Shown here: piece after piece, positions 2,849-22,091 of the stretch
How the letters are laid out: the number at the start of each line of letters is the position of its first letter
How positions within the stretch are numbered: position 1 is the first letter of the stretch
Source of the DNA: a virus
IMG/VR virus record: IMGVR_UViG_3300049737_000274
Location: 1-25,560 of that record
Reading direction: 5' to 3' (one strand)
DNA length: 25,560 nt
Position numbers and translations under genes: made by a program
Notes under the pieces: generated by a model
What the model saw: only the letters and a program-made list of their open reading frames with translations
What the model was told of the DNA's origin: nothing
Database searches by the model: none

Positions 2849-2856
2849 TATAAATA
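2849..2856 (+). promoter_or_regulatory. T4-type late promoter (TATAAATA)
   Basis: A perfect match to the T4 late-promoter -10 box, TATAAATA, begins immediately after the PAAR stop codon and 28 bases before the cysteine-rich mini-gene. A strong ribosome site (AAGGAG, 2864-2869) follows. Late promoters of this class are read by RNA polymerase carrying gp55/gp33 with the sliding clamp gp45. The expected products are the metallothionein-like gene, gp25, gp6 and genes downstream. The placement between genes supports function. Confidence 0.7.
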
Positions 2857-2876
2857 TAAGCTAAAGGAGAATATCA

Positions 2877-2996
2877 ATGGCGTGTACATGTAACGGTAAA
2901 TGCGAAAAATGCGGACATAAGTGTCACTGTAATGAAGAGTGTATGAAATGTGTAAATGATATTTGTACTGGTTGTAAATGCGAGTGTACTAAGTAA
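2877..2996 (+). CDS. Metallothionein-like cysteine-rich mini-protein
   Basis: This 39-residue ORF has 12 cysteines and two histidines and no aromatic residues. Cysteines fall at 3, 5, 9, 12, 16, 18, 22, 25, 30, 33, 35 and 37, giving C-x-C motifs (3/5, 16/18, 33/35/37) and C-x-x-C motifs (9/12, 22/25, 30/33), with His14 and His17 nearby. That splits into two six-cysteine halves, the look of a metallothionein binding Zn, Cd or Cu(I) in thiolate clusters. It is a credible gene: it follows AAGGAG at seven bases, sits behind a TATAAATA promoter, and its stop overlaps the ATG of the gp25 gene (TAATG). It could buffer metals during infection, supply zinc to PAAR or other metal proteins, or be a small virion component. 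The family assignment is from composition and spacing, not from an alignment. Confidence 0.8.
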   Translation: MACTCNGKCEKCGHKCHCNEECMKCVNDICTGCKCECTK

Positions 2997-3436
2997 TGTC
3001 TAGAGTTTTTTCACAAGAAGATGGTAGTATTAATACAGCATCGATAATTACTAGTCGAAAGAAAATCTATAAAGATATAGATCTTACTTTTGCTGTAAGA
3101 ACGATGGGTGATGTTTTTAAGAAAACAGATGCAGCATCAGTTAAACAAGCTGTAAAAAATATATTATTAACTAATCATTTCGAAAAACCTTTTACTCCTT
3201 TCTTTGGAGGTAATTTACACGCTTTCTTATTTGAAAATATTGAAGATTTAGATGAAATGGAAATTATGGATCATGTAAGTGCTGCAATAAACAATTATGA
3301 ACCAAGAGCAATTATAAGATCTTTAAAAGCTAATGCGCGACCTGATTATAATTCTATAGAATTAATTATAAGATTCCAAATTATTAACACATTTGAAAAC
3401 GTAGAATTAAATGTAGAACTTACGAGGTTAAGATAA
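2996..3436 (+). CDS. 25: Baseplate wedge subunit gp25
   Basis: This 146-residue protein belongs to the gp25/TssE family, the conserved wedge protein that links baseplate to sheath and helps start sheath assembly. The typical features are an N-terminal Y-K-D-I-D-L-T-F, a central helix with S-V-K-Q-A-V-K-N-I-L-L-T-N, the F-T-P-F-F-G-G-N-L loop, and the family signature E-P-R-A at residues 102-105 followed by a final beta hairpin (I-E-L-I-I-R-F, N-V-E-L-N-V-E-L). Length is close to T4 gp25 (132 residues). Its ATG overlaps the metallothionein-like stop and its own stop overlaps the gp6 ATG. In T4 gene 25 lies apart from genes 5 and 6; here it is directly before gene 6, an arrangement also seen in marine T4-like phages. 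Confidence 0.93.
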   Translation: MSRVFSQEDGSINTASIITSRKKIYKDIDLTFAVRTMGDVFKKTDAASVKQAVKNILLTNHFEKPFTPFFGGNLHAFLFENIEDLDEMEIMDHVSAAINNYEPRAIIRSLKANARPDYNSIELIIRFQIINTFENVELNVELTRLR

Positions 3437-5286
3437 TGGCTACAACAATAAAATCATCCGATTTAGATTTTAATACGATTAAAGCAAATTTAAAAAGTTA
3501 TTTTGCACAACAAGCAGAATTTGCAGATTATGATTTCGAAGCTTCGGGTTTAAGTAATATATTAGATGTTCTTGCATATAATACACATATTAATGGATTA
3601 ACTGCAAACTTTGCATTAAATGAAGCATTTTTAAATACCGCACAATTAAGATCATCTGTATTATCGCATGCAGCAAACTTAGGTTATTATCCGAGATCGA
3701 ATACTTGTTCTCAAGCAGTTGTTACTGTAACTGCAAATACTAGTGATACTATAACTGGAAGTGCAACTCTTCCAAGATTCAGTTCTTTTACATCAACTAT
3801 TGATGACGTTACTTATACTTTTAGTACTATAAGTGAAACAAGTGCATTGAATGATGGATCAGGAGGATTTACATTTAAAAATCCAGATGGAACAAGTAGC
3901 ATTGTCATTAAAGAAGGCGTACAAAAAACTAAAACATTTTTAGTAGGTAATCAATCTGATAATGCAGTTTATGTTATACCTGACACAAACGTGGATACTT
4001 CAACATTAGTAGTTAGAGTATTCGATAATGTGAATTCACAAAGTTTTACTGAATTTGCAGATATTCGTAATGCTGTTAATATAACACCAACATCAAAAGT
4101 TTATATTGTAAGAGAAGCACCTAATGGATTTTATGAACTTATATTCAGTGAAGGTAATGTATTAGGACAAGCGCCTATCGCTGGAAATCAAATTATTGCA
4201 ACGTACTTATCTACAAAGGGTGCTACTGCAAATAATGCATCTTCATTTACAGCAGCAAATTCAATATCTATAGGTGGTACAACTTACAATTTAACTGTTG
4301 CAAAAGTTTCAAATTCTGCAGGTGGTGCCGATAAAGAATCTCTTGATTCAATAAAACTAAATGCGCCAACTGCGTTTGCTGCACAACAAAGAATGGTTAC
4401 AGCAGAAGATTATAAAACATTAATTATTGGAAGATACAATAATGTATTAGATGACGTTATTGCTTGGGGTGGTCAAGATAATATTCCAGCTACATTTGGT
4501 AATGTATATGTGAGTTTAAAATTTAAAACTGCAATTGCCTCTAATATTCAACAAGAAACAAAAGATTCTATTAAATCAAACTTTGCAGCTAATTTATCTG
4601 TAATGTCAATTGATACTGTTTTCGTTGATCCTACAGAAACTCATATGGAAGTTAATGTTAAATTTGATTTTGATCCGGATTTAAGTGGTGATACTGTGAA
4701 TTCTACACAAATTTTAATTAAAAATAAAGTCGGTGAATTTTTTATAGCTAACTTAGGATTGTTTGGAAGAACATTTCGAAGATCTGCATTATTAACAGAA
4801 CTTGATGCATTATCACCAGCAGTTTTAAATAGTAGTGCTACTATTAATTTACAAAGAAGAATATCTGCACCTACAGATTTTCAATTTAATGTTTCTGCGC
4901 CAGTATCTGTAGAATTTCCTGCAAGACTTGCATTACCAGACGATGAATTACATATCATCAGTTCTTCGATATTTACATTTAACGGAGTGTTAGCAAGATT
5001 ACGTAATAAACTTAGCTCAACAACATTAGAAGTTGTAGATGTTAATACTAGTGGAATACTTAATGAAAATGCTGGAAGCTATGATCGTCTAAATGGTACA
5101 GTTCGTTTAGATGATACATTTAACATTAGTGCACATGAAGGAGCATTTATAAAAATAAGTGCAACACCTGATAATCAAAGTACAATTAAACCATTAAGAA
5201 GTCACGTATTATTATATGATAAAGATACTTCGCTTTCTTCTGGTACCATTGATACACAAAATACATTAGCGGTAATTACAACATAA
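3436..5286 (+). CDS. 6: Baseplate wedge subunit gp6 (baseplate J-like)
   Basis: At 616 residues this is close to T4 gp6 (660). gp6 dimers form the continuous inner ring of the baseplate that holds the six wedges together. The N-terminal part (D-Y-D-F-E-A-S-G-L-S-N-I-L-D-V-L-A-Y-N-T, with N-F-A-L-N-E-A-F-L-N-T-A) is the conserved gp6/J-family opening. The central segment A-Q-Q-R-M-V-T-A-E-D-Y-K is the J-family core element, followed by G-G-Q-D-N-I-P and a beta strand N-V-Y-V-S-L-K-F. The order gp25, gp6, gp7-like matches the known wedge contacts. The start overlaps the gp25 stop and follows GAGG, so the genes are coupled. Confidence 0.92.
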   Translation: MATTIKSSDLDFNTIKANLKSYFAQQAEFADYDFEASGLSNILDVLAYNTHINGLTANFALNEAFLNTAQLRSSVLSHAANLGYYPRSNTCSQAVVTVTANTSDTITGSATLPRFSSFTSTIDDVTYTFSTISETSALNDGSGGFTFKNPDGTSSIVIKEGVQKTKTFLVGNQSDNAVYVIPDTNVDTSTLVVRVFDNVNSQSFTEFADIRNAVNITPTSKVYIVREAPNGFYELIFSEGNVLGQAPIAGNQIIATYLSTKGATANNASSFTAANSISIGGTTYNLTVAKVSNSAGGADKESLDSIKLNAPTAFAAQQRMVTAEDYKTLIIGRYNNVLDDVIAWGGQDNIPATFGNVYVSLKFKTAIASNIQQETKDSIKSNFAANLSVMSIDTVFVDPTETHMEVNVKFDFDPDLSGDTVNSTQILIKNKVGEFFIANLGLFGRTFRRSALLTELDALSPAVLNSSATINLQRRISAPTDFQFNVSAPVSVEFPARLALPDDELHIISSSIFTFNGVLARLRNKLSSTTLEVVDVNTSGILNENAGSYDRLNGTVRLDDTFNISAHEGAFIKISATPDNQSTIKPLRSHVLLYDKDTSLSSGTIDTQNTLAVITT

Positions 5287-15326: not shown

Positions 15327-15761
15327 ATGGATTATACACATTTACCAAGAACAATTAAAGAACCTTATTGGTCTAATGAAAAAAAAGATCAAGTTATTTG
15401 CCAATTTCACTATGAAAGTGGACCTATGGTTATTGCAGCTGTTTCAGATGCTGAAAAAGGTAACCCTGATTGGAAAGAAATCATGGAAACTTTTGCATTA
15501 GAAGAAATAGATAAAAATACTGAAAAAATAATTGATGAACATAAAAGAAAAAGTGATGTTACTAAAGAAGAAAATAAAGATAAAAAAGAAAAACAATCTA
15601 GTGATGTATTATTTAATTCTAAATTAGAAGCTTTCGAAATTGATATTATAAAAAATTCTAAAAATAGAAAATTAAAATCTAGAATTAGAAAAGCAAAAAA
15701 TTTGACAGAAGTTATAGCATTTTCTTCTGCGCTCATTTCAAAAGAAATAGATAATGAATAA
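15327..15761 (+). CDS. Charged hypothetical protein, conserved style in marine T4-like phages
   Basis: This 144-residue protein has a small N-terminal domain (K-E-P-Y-W-S-N-E-K-K-D-Q-V-I-C-Q-F-H-Y-E, then V-I-A-A-V-S-D, G-N-P-D-W-K-E-I-M-E) and a highly charged helical middle (~60-95, rich in K and E). The C-terminal helix contains K-L-K-S-R-I-R-K-A-K-N-L-T-E-V. The N-terminal motifs resemble small proteins found after fibre genes in marine T4-like phages. No catalytic motif, signal peptide or membrane segment is visible. Its position directly after a fibre-like gene would suit a fibre assembly chaperone, but that is a guess from position. It overlaps the following glycosyltransferase gene by eight bases. 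Confidence 0.7.
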   Translation: MDYTHLPRTIKEPYWSNEKKDQVICQFHYESGPMVIAAVSDAEKGNPDWKEIMETFALEEIDKNTEKIIDEHKRKSDVTKEENKDKKEKQSSDVLFNSKLEAFEIDIIKNSKNRKLKSRIRKAKNLTEVIAFSSALISKEIDNE

Positions 15762-16440
15762 TGGATTTCTTTATGTTGCAAGTTTAAATAAAAGATATTT
15801 AACTGCCGCAAAATATTCTGCAAGTAGTTTAAGAGATTATTGGCCTGATGCTAATATTACTTTATTTACTCACTCTGAGTGGGTAAAAGAATCAGATAAT
15901 ATATTATTTAATAATATTATAACTGAAAATGTACCCTATCACAAAAGAGCTAAACTATGGGCTTTAAATAAAACTTCATATAATCTTACTTGTTATATGG
16001 ACGTAGACACTTGGGTTGAACATAATGATATAAAAGATATTTTCAAGCAACATAAAAAATCTTCAGATATTACTATAACTAGAGCACGTTCATATGCAGC
16101 TGCTATTAATTCTAAATTTAATGGCAATGAATTAGAAGATCATTGTGGTTTATTCATCTATAATAATAAAAGGCAAACATTAAATTTTATGAATCAATGG
16201 TGGAAATTATATTTAAAACAAGAAAGTAAAGAATGGAAATGGGACACATCACTATATCCTGAATATTTAAGACCATGGGATATGTGGACATATTGGTGGT
16301 TACAAAATATGACTGAACATAAAATAAAAAGATCATATTTTTCAAAACCAGATGCTCGATGGAATTTTGTACATATCTATAAAGAAGAAGAACTTATGAA
16401 AACAGAACCAGTAATTTTACATAGGCCAATACCGCGATGA
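15754..16440 (+). CDS. GT-A-type glycosyltransferase
   Basis: This 228-residue protein starts with F-L-Y-V-A-S-L-N-K-R-Y, followed by A-A-K-Y-S-A-S-S-L-R-D-Y-W-P-D-A-N-I-T-L-F-T, the nucleotide-sugar-binding opening of GT-A enzymes of the GT8-like sort. A C-Y-M-D-V-D-T-W-V segment puts the metal-binding DxD at Asp83-x-Asp85. R-A-K-L-W-A-L before it and C-G-L-F-I-Y-N-N after it are typical acceptor/donor-site surroundings. It would transfer a sugar from a nucleotide-sugar donor; the acceptor is unknown, with candidates being virion fibres, a host surface glycan, or modified DNA. It opens the cargo block, overlapping the previous gene by eight bases and the next by four (ATGA). No membrane segment, so cytoplasmic. 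Confidence 0.82.
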   Translation: MNNGFLYVASLNKRYLTAAKYSASSLRDYWPDANITLFTHSEWVKESDNILFNNIITENVPYHKRAKLWALNKTSYNLTCYMDVDTWVEHNDIKDIFKQHKKSSDITITRARSYAAAINSKFNGNELEDHCGLFIYNNKRQTLNFMNQWWKLYLKQESKEWKWDTSLYPEYLRPWDMWTYWWLQNMTEHKIKRSYFSKPDARWNFVHIYKEEELMKTEPVILHRPIPR

Positions 16441-17051
16441 AAGAAATACAAATAAAAAATGAAGAATTAATTGAATTATTAGAAAATATTAAAAATTGGT
16501 TTGATTTAAAAAATAAAGATGATGTAAAACTTAACGGTAAAGTTGATAAAGATGAGTATTATACATCAGAAGAATATTTTAAAAATATAAATCAAGAAAA
16601 ACATATAGGTTATCCTGAAGTTACTCTTGGTATGGATTTAAACAATGTAGATTCAACGCCATTAGATTGGAGAGAAGAAATAAGAAATTTTGATAATAAA
16701 ATGAAATCTATATTATCTTCTCCGAATTGTGCTGTAAAGATGTATTATCCTAAAGGTGGTTATATGAGTTGGCACAATAATCATAATGCATCAGGATTTA
16801 ATATTTTGTTATCACACACCGAAAATGGCAATGGTTTTTTTAGATATAAAGATCCTCAAACAAAAGAAACTATTACAATGAATGATGAACCTGGATGGAC
16901 TGCAAAGGTTGGATATTTTGGAAGCAATAAAGAAAAAGATAAAATATTTTGGCACTGTGCTCGAGCATATGAAGATAGATTAACATTAGGTTTTGTTATA
17001 CCAAATCAAAACATGTGGGAAATGATGTGCGATGATATTCAAGACCAATAG
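16437..17051 (+). CDS. 2OG-Fe(II) oxygenase-like protein
   Basis: This 204-residue protein resembles the small 2-oxoglutarate/Fe(II) oxygenases frequent in marine T4-like phages. The core is Y-Y-P-K-G-G-Y-M-S-W-H-N-N-H-N-A-S-G-F (residues ~102-120), then G-F-F-R-Y-K-D-P, W-T-A-K-V-G-Y-F-G, and F-W-H-C-A-R-A-Y-E-D-R-L-T-L-G-F. Likely iron ligands are His113 and the distal His173, with Arg181 as 2OG-binding residue. The usual acidic ligand after the first histidine is not obvious: positions 115 and 117 are Asn. Such enzymes hydroxylate or otherwise oxidise proteins, sugars or nucleic acids. It is coupled to the glycosyltransferase upstream by an ATGA overlap; its 3' end overlaps the convergent gene by 13 bases. 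Confidence 0.78.
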   Translation: MKEIQIKNEELIELLENIKNWFDLKNKDDVKLNGKVDKDEYYTSEEYFKNINQEKHIGYPEVTLGMDLNNVDSTPLDWREEIRNFDNKMKSILSSPNCAVKMYYPKGGYMSWHNNHNASGFNILLSHTENGNGFFRYKDPQTKETITMNDEPGWTAKVGYFGSNKEKDKIFWHCARAYEDRLTLGFVIPNQNMWEMMCDDIQDQ

Positions 17052-17785
17052 TGCTCAAATCCTTCATATAACCAATCATACTTTGGTCCATTAAATAGAC
17101 ATATAGTTCTATCTTTTATATGGTGTAAGTATATAGTATCATAATCTAATTTTTCATCTCCTGTTTCTTTTATTTTATTTCTAGTTAATTCAGCAGTAGA
17201 AATATCATTTTCTGTTTCACCAAATATTCTTGAGTAGATAATACCTTTAGGAAAAAAATCTATTTTCATTTTTTCGTGAAAAATAAAACGATCTATACCT
17301 TTATATTGAACCATAAAATAATCCGGATCTTTTTGAAAATGATTCCATATATCTACGCAATTATTAGATTTCCATAATAATACACTTGAGTTTGCGTACA
17401 TATCCCATCTGTCTTTTTCTCTTTTATGAGAACCATCGCTCATTAAATTGCCTTTCCAATATGCTCTAACCATCATTAAATCATCAGATAAATAGTTAAA
17501 CAAATGATCGATATTATTTTGTATTATTACATCGTGATCAAAATATAAACATGGACCAGGAGGCACAAAATCTTTTTGAAACATTGCTAATTTATTCCAA
17601 TAAATTTCTAAATAATTATCTGGTATTGGAATAATATTAATATTGTTATTTAAACCAGACGCGTTTTCTGTATAGCAATAAAATTTAAAAGGAATAGATA
17701 TACTACGAGAAACCATTTTATATAACCGGTTTGTAATATCGGAATTATATTTGGCACCCCATTTAACGCATATTACATTAACCAT
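17039..17785 (-). CDS. Glycosyltransferase (GT-A), inverted in the operon
   Basis: This 248-residue protein is the only gene on the minus strand. The N-terminus I-C-V-K-W-G-A-K-Y, followed by F-K-F-Y-C-Y-T-E-N-A-S-G-L, and the C-L-Y-F-D-H-D-V-I-I segment (DxD at Asp83-x-Asp85) mark a GT-A glycosyltransferase of a kind common in marine phages. H-H-I-K-D-R near the C-terminus is the usual late metal-binding His. It is clearly paralogous to the protein at 21351-22091: same length, same F-Y-C-Y-T-E-x-A-S block at residues 35-43 and DxD within a few residues. It ends inside the oxygenase gene (13-base convergent overlap) and starts 12 bases from the divergent methyltransferase-like gene, so its promoter must lie within that gene's coding region. 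No TATAAATA box is visible there. Confidence 0.85.
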   Translation of the reverse strand: MVNVICVKWGAKYNSDITNRLYKMVSRSISIPFKFYCYTENASGLNNNINIIPIPDNYLEIYWNKLAMFQKDFVPPGPCLYFDHDVIIQNNIDHLFNYLSDDLMMVRAYWKGNLMSDGSHKREKDRWDMYANSSVLLWKSNNCVDIWNHFQKDPDYFMVQYKGIDRFIFHEKMKIDFFPKGIIYSRIFGETENDISTAELTRNKIKETGDEKLDYDTIYLHHIKDRTICLFNGPKYDWLYEGFEHYWS

Positions 17786-17797
17786 GAAGATATATAT

Positions 17798-18397
17798 ATG
17801 AAATTTTATATAGATGATATAACAAAAAAAGTATTAAAAAAATTTCCTCATAGAGTAGAAGATATTGTTAATTCATTTGATCATAATAAAATTCACGCTA
17901 AAAATGAATTAGTTAGTAGAATTAAAAATTTACAAAGTAGAGGTAATTTACGTAATCCAATACCAAGAATAAGTATTGTTGGTGGTTGGTATGGAAACAT
18001 ATTAATTTCATTATTAGATGAATATAAAATAAATTATGAAAAAATAGATTTTTATGAAATAGATGAAGAAGCTATTAAGATAGCTAAAAATCATTTTTTG
18101 TTTGATATAGATAATATAAATTTTAAACTACAAGATGCAACAAAAATAGAATTTTCTGGTAATAGACATTTAATTATAAACACTTCAGCTGAACATATGA
18201 ATTCATTAAATATAAAAAGTGGAATTTTAGCAGTTCAATCTAATGATTATACATCAGTAGATGATCATACTAATTGTGTTAATAATGTACAAGAATTAAT
18301 TGATCAGTATAAATTTAAATTAAATAAAATTTGGTATAAACTTACTACGGAATATGACAATAAGTATAATAGATTTACGGTTATAGGTAGAATATAA
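17798..18397 (+). CDS. SAM-dependent methyltransferase-like protein
   Basis: This 199-residue protein has a class I methyltransferase layout. An N-terminal helical part is followed by I-S-I-V-G-G-W-Y-G-N at residues 58-67 (SAM-binding loop), I-D-F-Y-E-I-D-E-E-A with Glu87 as candidate ribose-binding acid, Q-D-A at 112-114, and I-I-N-T-S-A-E-H-M at 126-134 in the motif IV position. The G-G-W-Y-G loop variant is seen in some phage methyltransferase-like proteins. The substrate is unknown; the motif IV sequence is not the NPPY of DNA amino-methyltransferases nor a cytosine-C5 PC motif, so this is not an obvious DNA methylase. Start is 12 bases from the divergent glycosyltransferase; the next gene begins one base after the stop. 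Confidence 0.75.
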   Translation: MKFYIDDITKKVLKKFPHRVEDIVNSFDHNKIHAKNELVSRIKNLQSRGNLRNPIPRISIVGGWYGNILISLLDEYKINYEKIDFYEIDEEAIKIAKNHFLFDIDNINFKLQDATKIEFSGNRHLIINTSAEHMNSLNIKSGILAVQSNDYTSVDDHTNCVNNVQELIDQYKFKLNKIWYKLTTEYDNKYNRFTVIGRI

Positions 18398-18398
18398 T

Positions 18399-19376
18399 AT
18401 GTATTATTCTGATATAGAAAACCTTCATGTTGAATTAACAAACAGATGTAATGCTGGTTGCCCATCATGTGTTAGAACTGGAGATTTTCCTGGGTTTGTA
18501 TCTGAAACTATTTTTAATAGCGGAATTCACGATTTATCGCTAAATGATATGAAAAATATATGTGAACAATTACCAAAACTTAAATGGATCCATATGTGTG
18601 GCAATCTTGGTGATCCAGCTGTTTCCCCAGAATTTAAAGAAATAGTACATTATCTAAATTCAAAAAATATTTATTGTACTATATCAACAAATGGTGCACC
18701 AAGAAAACCAGAATATTGGAAAGAAATAGCATTAAAAGGTGTTAGCGTTTCATTTCACATAGATGGTGATGAAGATACGAATCACTTGTATCGTATTGGA
18801 ACAAACTATTATAAAATTATTGATAATGCAAAAGCATTTATTAAAGCTGGTGGTCATGCTCGATGGGTTTTTATACCTTTTAAACACAATGAACACGTCA
18901 TAGAAAAATGTAAAAATTTAGCTAAACATTTAGGTTTTAAAGAATTTAACGTAAAAAAATCTTATAGAGTGACTAACTTAAGCCCAAAGGCAAAAATAAA
19001 AATAGAATTACCTAAAAATGAAAATTTAATAAATTTTGGAGCTACTAATAATAAAGGAGATAAATGTATTAGTTGTAAAGTAAGTAATAATAATGAAATT
19101 TATTTTTCATGTAATGGTGAAATTTATCCTTGTTGTTGGTGGGCTGGATATTTTTGGAGTAAAAAATTTTCGAATAAAGAAAATAAATTTTCGTATTTAT
19201 TAGATTTTGAAAATAATTTTAAAAAAAGAGATATCAAAGATATTGTAAATGACTATATTAAAAAAACAGATGTTTATAAATTAGTATGGGATCTTAAAAA
19301 ATTTAGTGTATGTAATAAAAAATGTGGTAATGATAAACACAAAGATAGATATGTTGAAAGCAGAAAAAAATTATGA
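18399..19376 (+). CDS. Radical SAM protein with SPASM-like C-terminus
   Basis: This 325-residue protein has the radical SAM CxxxCxxC cluster motif at Cys17, Cys21 and Cys24 (R-C-N-A-G-C-P-S-C). G-N-L-G-D-P at 68-73 takes the place of the GGEP motif, and S-T-N-G at 96-99 follows. The C-terminal part carries extra cysteines in a SPASM-like order: Cys223/Cys226, Cys238, the C-N-G-E-I-Y-P-C-C-W block (Cys245/246) and Cys305/Cys309, likely holding one or two auxiliary Fe-S clusters. SPASM proteins usually modify peptides or alcohols, but several marine phage members have no known substrate. It lies one base after the methyltransferase-like gene and overlaps the PP-loop gene by an ATGA, so the three are probably coupled. 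Confidence 0.87.
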   Translation: MYYSDIENLHVELTNRCNAGCPSCVRTGDFPGFVSETIFNSGIHDLSLNDMKNICEQLPKLKWIHMCGNLGDPAVSPEFKEIVHYLNSKNIYCTISTNGAPRKPEYWKEIALKGVSVSFHIDGDEDTNHLYRIGTNYYKIIDNAKAFIKAGGHARWVFIPFKHNEHVIEKCKNLAKHLGFKEFNVKKSYRVTNLSPKAKIKIELPKNENLINFGATNNKGDKCISCKVSNNNEIYFSCNGEIYPCCWWAGYFWSKKFSNKENKFSYLLDFENNFKKRDIKDIVNDYIKKTDVYKLVWDLKKFSVCNKKCGNDKHKDRYVESRKKL

Positions 19377-20116
19377 TAAAATTTGAAGTAGATAACCAAT
19401 CAATAGAAATTGATGTTGAAAAATTACAAAAATATAAAAAAATTGGAATTGCATTTTCTAGTGGAACTGATTCAAGTTTAATATTTTGTTTATTAGCTAA
19501 GTATGTACCAAACATAGAAATCATACCATGGTATGGAATAGAATTTCATCAATTACCCGGTTTAGATTTTGTTAAAGACGCACATAAAAAAATAGTTAAT
19601 AATTACCCTAATGCTAATATAGCACCAATGCGATATTTTGGTATAGATAAAAAAGATCCTATTTGGATAAAAAAATTTGAAAATTCAAAAAACAATGATT
19701 TTCTTGTCAGTAAAAACATAAAAAATTATATAGTTGATGAAGCACATAATGAATATCTTAGAACTGGCATTACAAATCTTAATGTTTTTGGTACGTTATC
19801 AGCACCACCAAAATCAGAATGTATTAAATATAATTTTATTAAATATGTCCAACCATATCGTTTTAATCCAAATGGTGATATATGGAGTATAACTAACACA
19901 AAAATATGGCAACCTCTTAAATTTGTAAATAAAAAATTTGTTGCTGGAATGTTTAAAAAAGAAGGTCTTATGGATTGGTTATATTCCCATTTAAATTCAT
20001 GTGCAAGTAGAGATCCAGTAAAAACTAAAAATTTTACATACCCCTGTAAAACCGATTGTTATCAATGTCATGAAAGATATTGGGGTTTTGGAACATATGA
20101 TGGATCAACAAAATGA
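19373..20116 (+). CDS. PP-loop ATP pyrophosphatase with QueC-like cysteine cluster
   Basis: This 247-residue protein has the PP-loop near the N-terminus, I-A-F-S-S-G-T-D-S-S at residues 26-35, a variant of SGGxDS. PP-loop enzymes adenylate a carbonyl or carboxyl group, releasing pyrophosphate, so that a nucleophile such as ammonia or sulfur can replace AMP. The C-terminus has Cys210 and then Cys225, Cys229 and Cys232 followed by H-E-R and G-F, resembling the zinc site and C-x-x-C-x-E-R ending of QueC-type proteins. Length fits (QueC ~220-230). QueC makes 7-cyano-7-deazaguanine, but no FolE, QueD or typical QueE is visible here, so that specific role is not supported. Coupled by ATGA overlaps to radical SAM genes on both sides, it likely acts in the same pathway. 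Confidence 0.78.
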   Translation: MIKFEVDNQSIEIDVEKLQKYKKIGIAFSSGTDSSLIFCLLAKYVPNIEIIPWYGIEFHQLPGLDFVKDAHKKIVNNYPNANIAPMRYFGIDKKDPIWIKKFENSKNNDFLVSKNIKNYIVDEAHNEYLRTGITNLNVFGTLSAPPKSECIKYNFIKYVQPYRFNPNGDIWSITNTKIWQPLKFVNKKFVAGMFKKEGLMDWLYSHLNSCASRDPVKTKNFTYPCKTDCYQCHERYWGFGTYDGSTK

Positions 20117-21354
20117 AAAATTTTCCAAAAAATTTCTGTCCCCAACCATTTACATATATTTATCCTAATCATCATGGTGCATGGAAACCTTGTTGTAAAT
20201 GTCAGAATTATCCTCAGAAAAAAATATCATTTGATGAATGGTGGTATGAAGATAAAGAGTTAAAAGATTTAAGAAATACTTTATTGTCTGATACTCCTTA
20301 TGATGAATGGAATGAAAATTTACAAAATGTTTGTGAACGATGTTTTGGTCCAGAAAGCAGAGGTGTAAAGTCTTATAGACAACATTCAGTAGATTCATGG
20401 TCACACCCAAGTGTAAAAGATAATTTATTAGATATGATAAATTCTTTTAAAGAAACAGGAAAGTTAGTAGCAAATCAACGAACATTTATAGTTAAAGTAA
20501 GAGGTTTTGGTAATGAATGTAACTTAAAATGTTATATGTGTGTTCCTCATAATTCAACAGCTAGAAATACTGAATTACTTAAAGCAAATGAAGATAGTGT
20601 TAAGATTTTCTACCCTAAAGGTCATCAAAGATTAATTAAAAATAAAACTATACCATTAGACAATGAGTATGAAAAACAACAAATGTATGATGTTATAGAA
20701 AAAATGAGTCCATATATAGCTCAGTTTAATTTTTCTGGTGGAGAGCCAGTAATGATAAAAGAATACTATGAGTTAATGGATAAAATTATTGAAACAGGAC
20801 AAAATCAAAACGTCCGAATTCATATGAATAGCAATCTTACTAGACTTAATTTGGGTAATAAACACTTAGAAGAATACATTCCAAAATTTAAAATGTTTTT
20901 TATACAAGCGTCAATTGATGATATATATGAAAGAGATGAATGGTCTCGTTATCCCTCAAAATTTGAAAAAGTTATGGAGAATTACAAGTATCTTCAAAAT
21001 AATAAAAAAATACAAATTATTGTGCACCCAACTTGGTCTCTACTAAATGTGGCAAATGCTGAAAATATATTAAATTTTTTTCTAGCTAATAGTATGAGAA
21101 TAAATGATAATATAAATTTTGTATCTAATCCATCAGTTTTACATATAAAAAATTATCCACACAAAGACTTTTTTATAGAAAAATATAAAAATTCTAAATT
21201 TAAAATGGTGAGAGAATTATCTCTTGAATTGCAAGCAGAATTTAATCAAGCAGAGTTTTTAAAAGCAATTAACTATATTAAAGATTTAGATAGAATTAGA
21301 AAAACAAAAAGTTGGGAAGTATATCCTGAATTAAGTGAATTTTTAAAACCATGA
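20113..21354 (+). CDS. Radical SAM protein with N-terminal twitch/SPASM-like cysteines
   Basis: This 413-residue protein differs from the neighbouring radical SAM gene in architecture. Residues 1-80 carry an auxiliary cysteine set: Cys9 in F-C-P-Q-P-F, Cys27/28 and Cys30 in W-K-P-C-C-K-C, and Cys74/Cys77 in C-E-R-C-F-G. The radical SAM motif is then internal, Cys136, Cys140 and Cys143 (E-C-N-L-K-C-Y-M-C), followed by F-S-G-G-E-P at 207-212 and H-M-N-S-N near 236-240. This layout is that of the twitch-domain radical SAM proteins common in marine T4-like phages, whose substrates are not known. ATGA overlaps link it to the PP-loop gene upstream and the glycosyltransferase downstream. Confidence 0.87.
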   Translation: MKNFPKNFCPQPFTYIYPNHHGAWKPCCKCQNYPQKKISFDEWWYEDKELKDLRNTLLSDTPYDEWNENLQNVCERCFGPESRGVKSYRQHSVDSWSHPSVKDNLLDMINSFKETGKLVANQRTFIVKVRGFGNECNLKCYMCVPHNSTARNTELLKANEDSVKIFYPKGHQRLIKNKTIPLDNEYEKQQMYDVIEKMSPYIAQFNFSGGEPVMIKEYYELMDKIIETGQNQNVRIHMNSNLTRLNLGNKHLEEYIPKFKMFFIQASIDDIYERDEWSRYPSKFEKVMENYKYLQNNKKIQIIVHPTWSLLNVANAENILNFFLANSMRINDNINFVSNPSVLHIKNYPHKDFFIEKYKNSKFKMVRELSLELQAEFNQAEFLKAINYIKDLDRIRKTKSWEVYPELSEFLKP

Positions 21355-22091
21355 TTAATATACTAACACTAAAAGTTGGGACAAAATATTCACATGAATA
21401 TGTAAACAAATTATTTTTTAATTTAAATAAAAATAGTAATACTAAGTTTAATTTTTACTGTTATACTGAAGATGCATCAAAATTAGCATCAGGTATAAAA
21501 GTAATACCACTTGAAAATCCTGATAAATTTCAACTACAATGGCATAAATTAAAATTACATAAAAATGATTTTGCAGGTATATCGCAAGGTGAAAAATGTT
21601 TACTATTAGATATTGATTGGATTGTAATTGATGATGTAGATGAAATATTAACTTATAATTTACCACACAATCATCTTGGTTGTTTTGAAAGATGGTGGTC
21701 TAATCTTAGACATTTCTGTAAGTTAAATGGTGGATTTCAAATGTTTTATATGGGTGAAACAAATTATCTTTGGGAAAGATTTAACAAAAACCCAGAATAC
21801 TGGCAAAGATATTATGTGGAAAATGGATTTGCAGAAGGGCCAATAAATGGTGAACAAAACTTTATTGATGAACATACAAAAAATAAACATTGGTTACCAA
21901 TGGAATGGTTCGCAAAATATCATAGTGAAGATTGGATTAAAATAAATCGTAACTGGCAAAGAGATGTTAATCCAGAAGAGCCATATTATATGGGAGGTAC
22001 TTTTGCTGAAACTATTAAGATGGTACATTTTTCAAACTCTGAAAATTTAATTCATAATAGTAATGAACATTGGATAAAAGATTATTGGTAA
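21351..22091 (+). CDS. Glycosyltransferase (GT-A), paralogue of the inverted one
   Basis: This 246-residue protein opens with I-L-T-L-K-V-G-T-K-Y and F-N-F-Y-C-Y-T-E-D-A-S-K-L, then L-Q-W-H-K-L-K-L, and has C-L-L-L-D-I-D-W-I-V with the DxD at Asp87-x-Asp89. N-G-G-F-Q-M-F near residue 125 and V-H-F-S near the C-terminus complete the GT-A picture. It shares length and the same N-terminal landmarks with the minus-strand protein at 17039-17785; I estimate roughly a third of N-terminal residues identical by eye. It closes the cargo block. Its ATG overlaps the stop of the radical SAM gene, so its acceptor may be the product of that pathway. Confidence 0.85.
   Translation: MINILTLKVGTKYSHEYVNKLFFNLNKNSNTKFNFYCYTEDASKLASGIKVIPLENPDKFQLQWHKLKLHKNDFAGISQGEKCLLLDIDWIVIDDVDEILTYNLPHNHLGCFERWWSNLRHFCKLNGGFQMFYMGETNYLWERFNKNPEYWQRYYVENGFAEGPINGEQNFIDEHTKNKHWLPMEWFAKYHSEDWIKINRNWQRDVNPEEPYYMGGTFAETIKMVHFSNSENLIHNSNEHWIKDYW

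Follow-up and report, generated by a model that had tools for sequence, protein, structure and literature searches.

Metallothioneins, in the general sense of the term, are small proteins with a very high cysteine content, in which C-x-C and C-x2-C motifs recur and aromatic residues are few or absent. The prokaryotic representatives SmtA, BmtA and PmtA are covered by the Pfam family PF02069 (Metallothio_Pro), and the core of cyanobacterial SmtA is Zn4Cys9His2 (PMC10119931). In the open-licence PMC literature we found no paper on a phage metallothionein: word searches in PMC7029224 and PMC9599517 turn up neither metallothionein nor cysteine, and passages of PMC9337993 deal with host metallothionein only.

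The window studied here, a stretch of 25,560 bases taken as a whole, represents part of the genome of a T4-like myovirus. The described baseplate run opens with a gp5-type hub lysozyme (690-2531) and continues on the + strand with a PAAR spike-tip gene (2531-2848), which lies outside the cysteine-rich family described below, and, further on, with the baseplate wedge gene gp25 (2996-3436). The next long ORF (3436-5286) is taken for gp6 because its DNA matches carry the label "baseplate wedge". The initial annotation, made from the DNA sequence, had named both PAAR and gp25, and these identities are backed by Pfam and PHROG matches (PF05488, E 1.2e-6, and phrog_281, E 3.7e-15, for PAAR; PF04965, E 9.7e-11, and phrog_261, E 1.7e-33, for gp25). 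Between the two lies, as annotated, a gene on the + strand (2877-2996) that encodes 39 residues, 12 of them cysteines and two histidines. The PAAR stop codon occupies 2846-2848, and the very next base begins a T4-type late promoter box, TATAAATA (2849-2856, +), the putative driver of both the Cys-rich gene and gp25. It is followed by an AAAGGAG ribosome-binding site (2863-2869, +), 7 nt 5' of the start codon, and at the other end of the gene, in the motif TAATG, its stop codon and the start codon of gp25 share one base, 2996; the ribosome site and the overlap are thus as the initial annotation had them. A ribosome site of gp25's own is not clear. With 39 aa, 31% cysteine and no F, W or Y, the window protein has the composition of a metallothionein in the general sense. 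Its core ligands are C9, C12, H14, C16, H17, C18, C22, C25, C30, C33 and C35, beyond which it has the extra cysteines C3, C5 and C37. Two other features of the window deserve mention. The C-terminal domain of the hub lysozyme is VgrG3-like (PF21277, E 3.1e-38), of a kind named for type VI secretion spikes, and between tail genes, at 15754-22091, there are ORFs that by eye look glycosyltransferase-, methyltransferase-, radical-SAM- and PP-loop-like.

An ORF of at least 30 aa with at least 10 cysteines and at least 25% cysteine occurs once in the window and in none of 300 second-order Markov versions of it. Cysteine count alone is nevertheless insufficient as proof of a gene, since locus L046 contains a chance antisense ORF with 12 cysteines in 39 aa. 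The search of relatives for a short Cys-rich ORF at the PAAR-gp25 junction, which had been proposed as a check, found one. Twelve gp25 loci show at least 74% identity, and all 11 of those that have DNA 5' of gp25 contain a Cys-rich ORF at the same position and in the same frame. The remaining locus, L004, begins 8 bases before gp25 and was left out of this count. These 11 relatives share with the window the promoter box, the ribosome site and the TAATG overlap, AAA(N)GGAG being present in all 12 aligned sequences. Frameshifts or loss of the cysteines would have spoken against the gene. In all 11 testable relatives, indels are in-frame only and the core cysteines are kept; one of them, L011, has lost four residues, including one C-x-C, by an in-frame deletion of 12 nt. 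Over the first 35 codons of nine orthologues, two of which have a more distant gp25, pN/pS is 0.25, in a comparison in which synonymous sites are often near saturation, and 8 of the 11 invariant cysteine codons switch between TGT and TGC. Conservation, pN/pS and the Markov versions together rule out a chance ORF. The Cys-rich ORF is a functional phage gene under purifying selection and is very probably expressed, which upholds the claim of a real, conserved gene of metallothionein-like composition.

The gene has many relatives. A profile of the junction peptides identified 74 loci in viral contigs, and a wider profile 94, of which 80 were kept, making about 93 distinct contigs in all when counted by eye from contig names. 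A scan of the profile loci with the core pattern C-x2-C-x-[H/C]-x2-H-C-x3-C-x2-C-x-N-D-x-C-x2-C-x-C returned 66 distinct proteins with 61 distinct cores and 9-14 cysteines. Ten of the eleven core ligands are prescribed by this pattern, and for these the only free evidence is an alignment of 45 rows. There, C9, C12, H17, C18, C22, C25, N27, C30, C33 and C35 are invariant in 45/45 rows, while K8, K11, H14, D28, T31 and G32 are nearly so. Position 14, at which the pattern allowed histidine or cysteine only, is H in 51 and C in 10 of the 61 distinct cores, an exchange expected of a metal ligand. Position 16, left free by the pattern, is C in 47 cores, S in nine, H in three, K in one and P in one. 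We infer from this ligand conservation and from the exchange at position 14 that the proteins would bind several metal ions in thiolate clusters. The invariant or nearly invariant N27, D28, T31 and G32 exceed what a pure metal sponge would need and may mean that the protein has a defined fold or a partner. Most members are 35-45 aa long, some with aromatic residues in their tails, and searches of whole records found one good copy in 15/15 records, with a second, weak copy in G006 and G008. This is a large family, without a name, of tiny metallothionein-like virus proteins in uncultured virus contigs.

According to the initial annotation, the mini-gene has its own late promoter. The box occurs four times in the window, which is not above chance (mean 6.9), and is credible as a late promoter because all four copies are on the + strand, wholly within the intergenic bases that make up 4.1% of the window, and shortly before gene starts (20-27 nt for three copies, 80 nt for one). 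With TATAAATA upstream on its coding strand, the Cys-rich gene would be classed as a T4-type late gene; in a survey of pelagimyophages, late-promoter prediction is reported to have failed for the genomes concerned (PMC7029224). The promoter at 2849-2856 is credible, but calling it the Cys-rich gene's own is not quite accurate. The gp25 loci number 80 in total, and in the 68 others, at 46-54% identity, no Cys-rich coding-strand ORF lies directly before gp25 (L023, L058 and L072 having fewer than 90 bases upstream of it). Yet TATAAATA is found 27-38 nt before the gp25 match in 59 of these 68, and the same box precedes gp25 in the phage HTVC008M and in G001. A box before gp25 in relatives without the gene means that the mini-gene was inserted between gp25 and its late promoter. 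On this comparison, the promoter belongs to gp25 and the Cys-rich gene is a leader cistron between the two. An obvious gp25 ribosome site is absent from all nine of the gene-bearing sequences examined, so that gp25 is probably translated by coupling to the Cys-rich gene. Together with the TAATG overlap, this could mean that the frame matters mainly as a leader cistron setting gp25 translation, the peptide itself doing little. We consider this extremely unlikely, since the cysteines and the N-D and T-G residues persist despite synonymous sites that are often close to saturation, and the same protein is retained in places that lack gp25.

These places are many. By our own count, the Cys-rich gene lies directly before gp25 in 14 of the roughly 93 contigs. 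A window-type PAAR gene is found upstream by BLAST in 12 of the 14; in the 13th, L176, a divergent PAAR-like ORF precedes the gene by reading, and the 14th, L101, begins too late to show the PAAR region. The 61 of 74 junction-profile loci without gp25 form eight clusters by flank similarity. In the L084 cluster the gene sits between the hub assembly genes gp26/gp51 and a tape-measure-like gene; in the L120 cluster (31 loci) it is upstream of PurM-like and DNA polymerase genes; in L115/L141 it is beside Hsp20, a blue-copper protein and lysozymes; in L146/L104 it is near ribonucleotide reductase or small membrane proteins; and in L132 it follows a neck gene. Further clusters exist beyond these. 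The junction copy L083 and the hub copy L084 are 88% and 85% identical, respectively, to L006. The family thus occupies several unrelated genomic places. Among the neighbours, the blue-copper protein (L115:4428-4898), directly before the Cys-rich gene, is a phage protein of plastocyanin/azurin type (PF00127, E 5.8e-17), and holin- or lysozyme-like genes stand beside the Cys-rich gene in some contexts, from which no link with lysis genes is claimed. Another recurring neighbour is a small protein of membrane type that contains an EF-hand-like D-x-D-G-D-G motif (L084:5123-5503, L149:4518-4844 and L134:4566-4877), with related proteins in marine Roseobacter, Methylophilales and Pelagibacter phages. 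A 145-kb phage contig has a tandem pair of PAAR genes and then a nuclease-like ORF before gp25 (L248:19-1099).

The genomic contexts bear on two alternatives that tie the peptide to the virion. PAAR proteins need zinc (PMC10715212), and with a PAAR gene ahead of the Cys-rich gene in 12 of 14 gp25-adjacent contigs, and in L176 by reading, the peptide might act as a metallochaperone and supply the adjacent spike tip with zinc, as had been suggested at the outset. We find this very unlikely. Linkage to PAAR holds within the gp25-adjacent group and is not consistent across the family, most members of which have no window-like PAAR nearby. In G001, the 145-kb record of L084, two PAAR genes and a nuclease-like ORF precede gp25 (at 1.2 kb) with no Cys-rich gene there, and the latter is at 124.7 kb. 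In HTVC008M, too, a PAAR-like ORF precedes gp25 and a confident family member is lacking, and in L176 the PAAR gene was swapped for a divergent one while the Cys-rich gene stayed. Each of the two genes occurs where the other is absent, and genomic context, with eight clusters away from PAAR, rules out PAAR metallation as the general role of the Cys-rich gene. A small virion part, for example a minor baseplate component, would agree with the late promoter and with the location in a baseplate or hub operon in two contexts, the window and the L084 cluster. The other contexts, next to DNA polymerase/PurM, ribonucleotide reductase and Hsp20/lysozyme genes, make it highly unlikely, as does the fact that gp25 relatives lacking the Cys-rich gene keep gp25 and its promoter. 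The peptide's role is probably in metal handling in the infected cell, and not in service of the neighbouring tail-spike protein only.

Outside uncultured viral contigs the family is hard to find. No confident member was detected among 50,697 named phages. A tblastn search of these phages with the window peptide and L141 returned none, under a BLAST filter that hides much of both queries; with this default filter on, the window peptide finds 7 of 73 known loci, and with it off, 73 of 73. The queries L104 and L127, which with that filter and an equal database size recover 73/73 known loci, gave best matches in named phages of only E 7 (HTVC023P) and E 2, respectively. Profile searches of whole records produced one weak match, in HTVC008M, in seven records and none in seven others. 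In the Pelagibacter phage HTVC023P (L257:2500-2602) there is an unannotated Cys/His-rich stretch just after a PurM-like gene; its open frame begins within the PurM-like gene, after whose stop there is no ordinary start codon. In genome contigs of 84,980 species there were 19 pattern matches, two of which passed. L162 is a contig assigned to a Rhodobacteraceae bin, and its neighbouring ORFs look, by eye, like those of the phage locus L149; L163 (4305-5330) is an archaeal ORF with a GTPase-like start and a Cys/His-rich tail containing a stretch like the phage core, a likeness taken as convergence. With only these two passing, one with phage-like flanks and the other read as convergence, a host origin was rejected. 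For 38 members, Pfam, PHROGs and NCBIfam returned no meaningful match, the best listed having E 0.21, and in a profile search of the PDB no solved chain matches (best E 0.035, over a best stretch of nine residues). An AlphaFold model has a mean pLDDT of 69.6 and no helix or strand of listed length, and gave no useful match in Foldseek. This output would fit a metal-held fold, but at such low confidence it is no evidence for metal binding.

The best explanation, to which we give about an even chance, is that this functional phage gene encodes a metallothionein-like microprotein acting as a late-expressed cytoplasmic metal-thiolate buffer, probably for zinc. About 11 core Cys/His ligands, plus the extra terminal cysteines, would form a thiolate cluster around which the peptide folds; the peptide would therefore bind several Zn(II), or Cu(I)/Cd(II). 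Made late in the host cytoplasm, alongside virion genes, it would take up or buffer metal freed as the host is dismantled, or hold zinc for late metalloproteins, and it may also quench oxidants. The gene would be a self-contained unit placed behind different promoters by recombination, and hence have no fixed partner gene. Late expression, the lack of a fixed partner and the variable extra cysteines point to a general metal buffer rather than to a chaperone for a single protein. The main rival is a compact, zinc-finger-like adaptor or regulator with 2-4 structural zincs, in which metal is not cargo and which would bind a protein or nucleic acid, of host or phage, late in infection. It owes its standing to the conserved N-D and T-G residues, among the invariant or nearly invariant K8, K11, N27, D28, T31 and G32 between the cysteines, and to reduced sister forms (CxxCG[HN]xSHC...CxxCRCExC) with fewer ligands, along with a weak likeness in sequence, in the PDB search, to zinc knuckles and ribbons only (best E 0.035). 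About 30% cysteine and terminal cysteines that vary, for totals of 9-14, better suit a variable-load metal binder, and neither AlphaFold nor Foldseek yielded a finger fold. We thus regard such an adaptor as possible but rather unlikely.

The metal-buffer reading can be extended. Zinc and copper are scarce in surface ocean water, which receives the contents of cells back through viral lysis. It is conceivable, and we propose it only tentatively, that marine viruses have a metallothionein family of their own, with no sequence kinship to cellular ones, a mini-cassette that moves between late operons of phage lineages and seizes or buffers zinc or copper during host breakdown, tying infection to trace-metal cycling in the metal-poor ocean. 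A widespread family of viral metal-thiolate peptides would add a new type to the viral auxiliary genes and make the metal side of infection directly testable. Genes of this class, 35-45 aa with more than 20% cysteine, are missing from family libraries and hidden by the BLAST default filter.

As for known systems, the family resembles SmtA, BmtA and PmtA in being small and rich in cysteines, with C-x-C and C-x2-C motifs plus histidines. The core of the window protein has nine cysteines and two histidines, the same count as in the Zn4Cys9His2 core of SmtA, which by analogy would argue for a multi-metal thiolate cluster. In contrast to these proteins, the family has a different order of Cys/His motifs, is mostly 35-45 aa long and is found in viruses. 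PF02069 was listed for none of 38 members up to E 10 in searches whose HMMER filters drop most weak matches, whereas the SmtA control matches it at E 3.9e-21 and the library consequently does detect short Cys-rich proteins. An hhalign comparison of the family with SmtA gave a probability of 2.4%, and membership in the prokaryotic metallothionein family was rejected on these two results. Likenesses are also seen in two tiny phage ORFs, gp049 of HTVC008M (YP_007517915.1, hypothetical; about 0.7 kb before gp25, weak profile match of E 0.011) and a further small Cys/His ORF in L146 (5096-5242), immediately behind the family member there. Both share with the family a C-x2-C-G-[H/N]-x-S-H-C start and a C-x2-C-R-C-E-x-C end, but have a longer spacer in place of the middle C-x2-C-x-N-D, with apparently only about eight ligands, and by their motifs look like a sister family. 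The C-x2-C ... H spacing of the first half also recalls zinc knuckles and small zinc ribbons. Retroviral nucleocapsid knuckles appeared in the PDB profile search at E 1.2 or worse, with no significant match; the family has a far higher cysteine density than knuckles and ribbons, and no similar fold was found. On the best reading, the family deserves the name metallothionein by analogy rather than by descent, and we rate it as new by sequence and home and metallothionein-like by composition.
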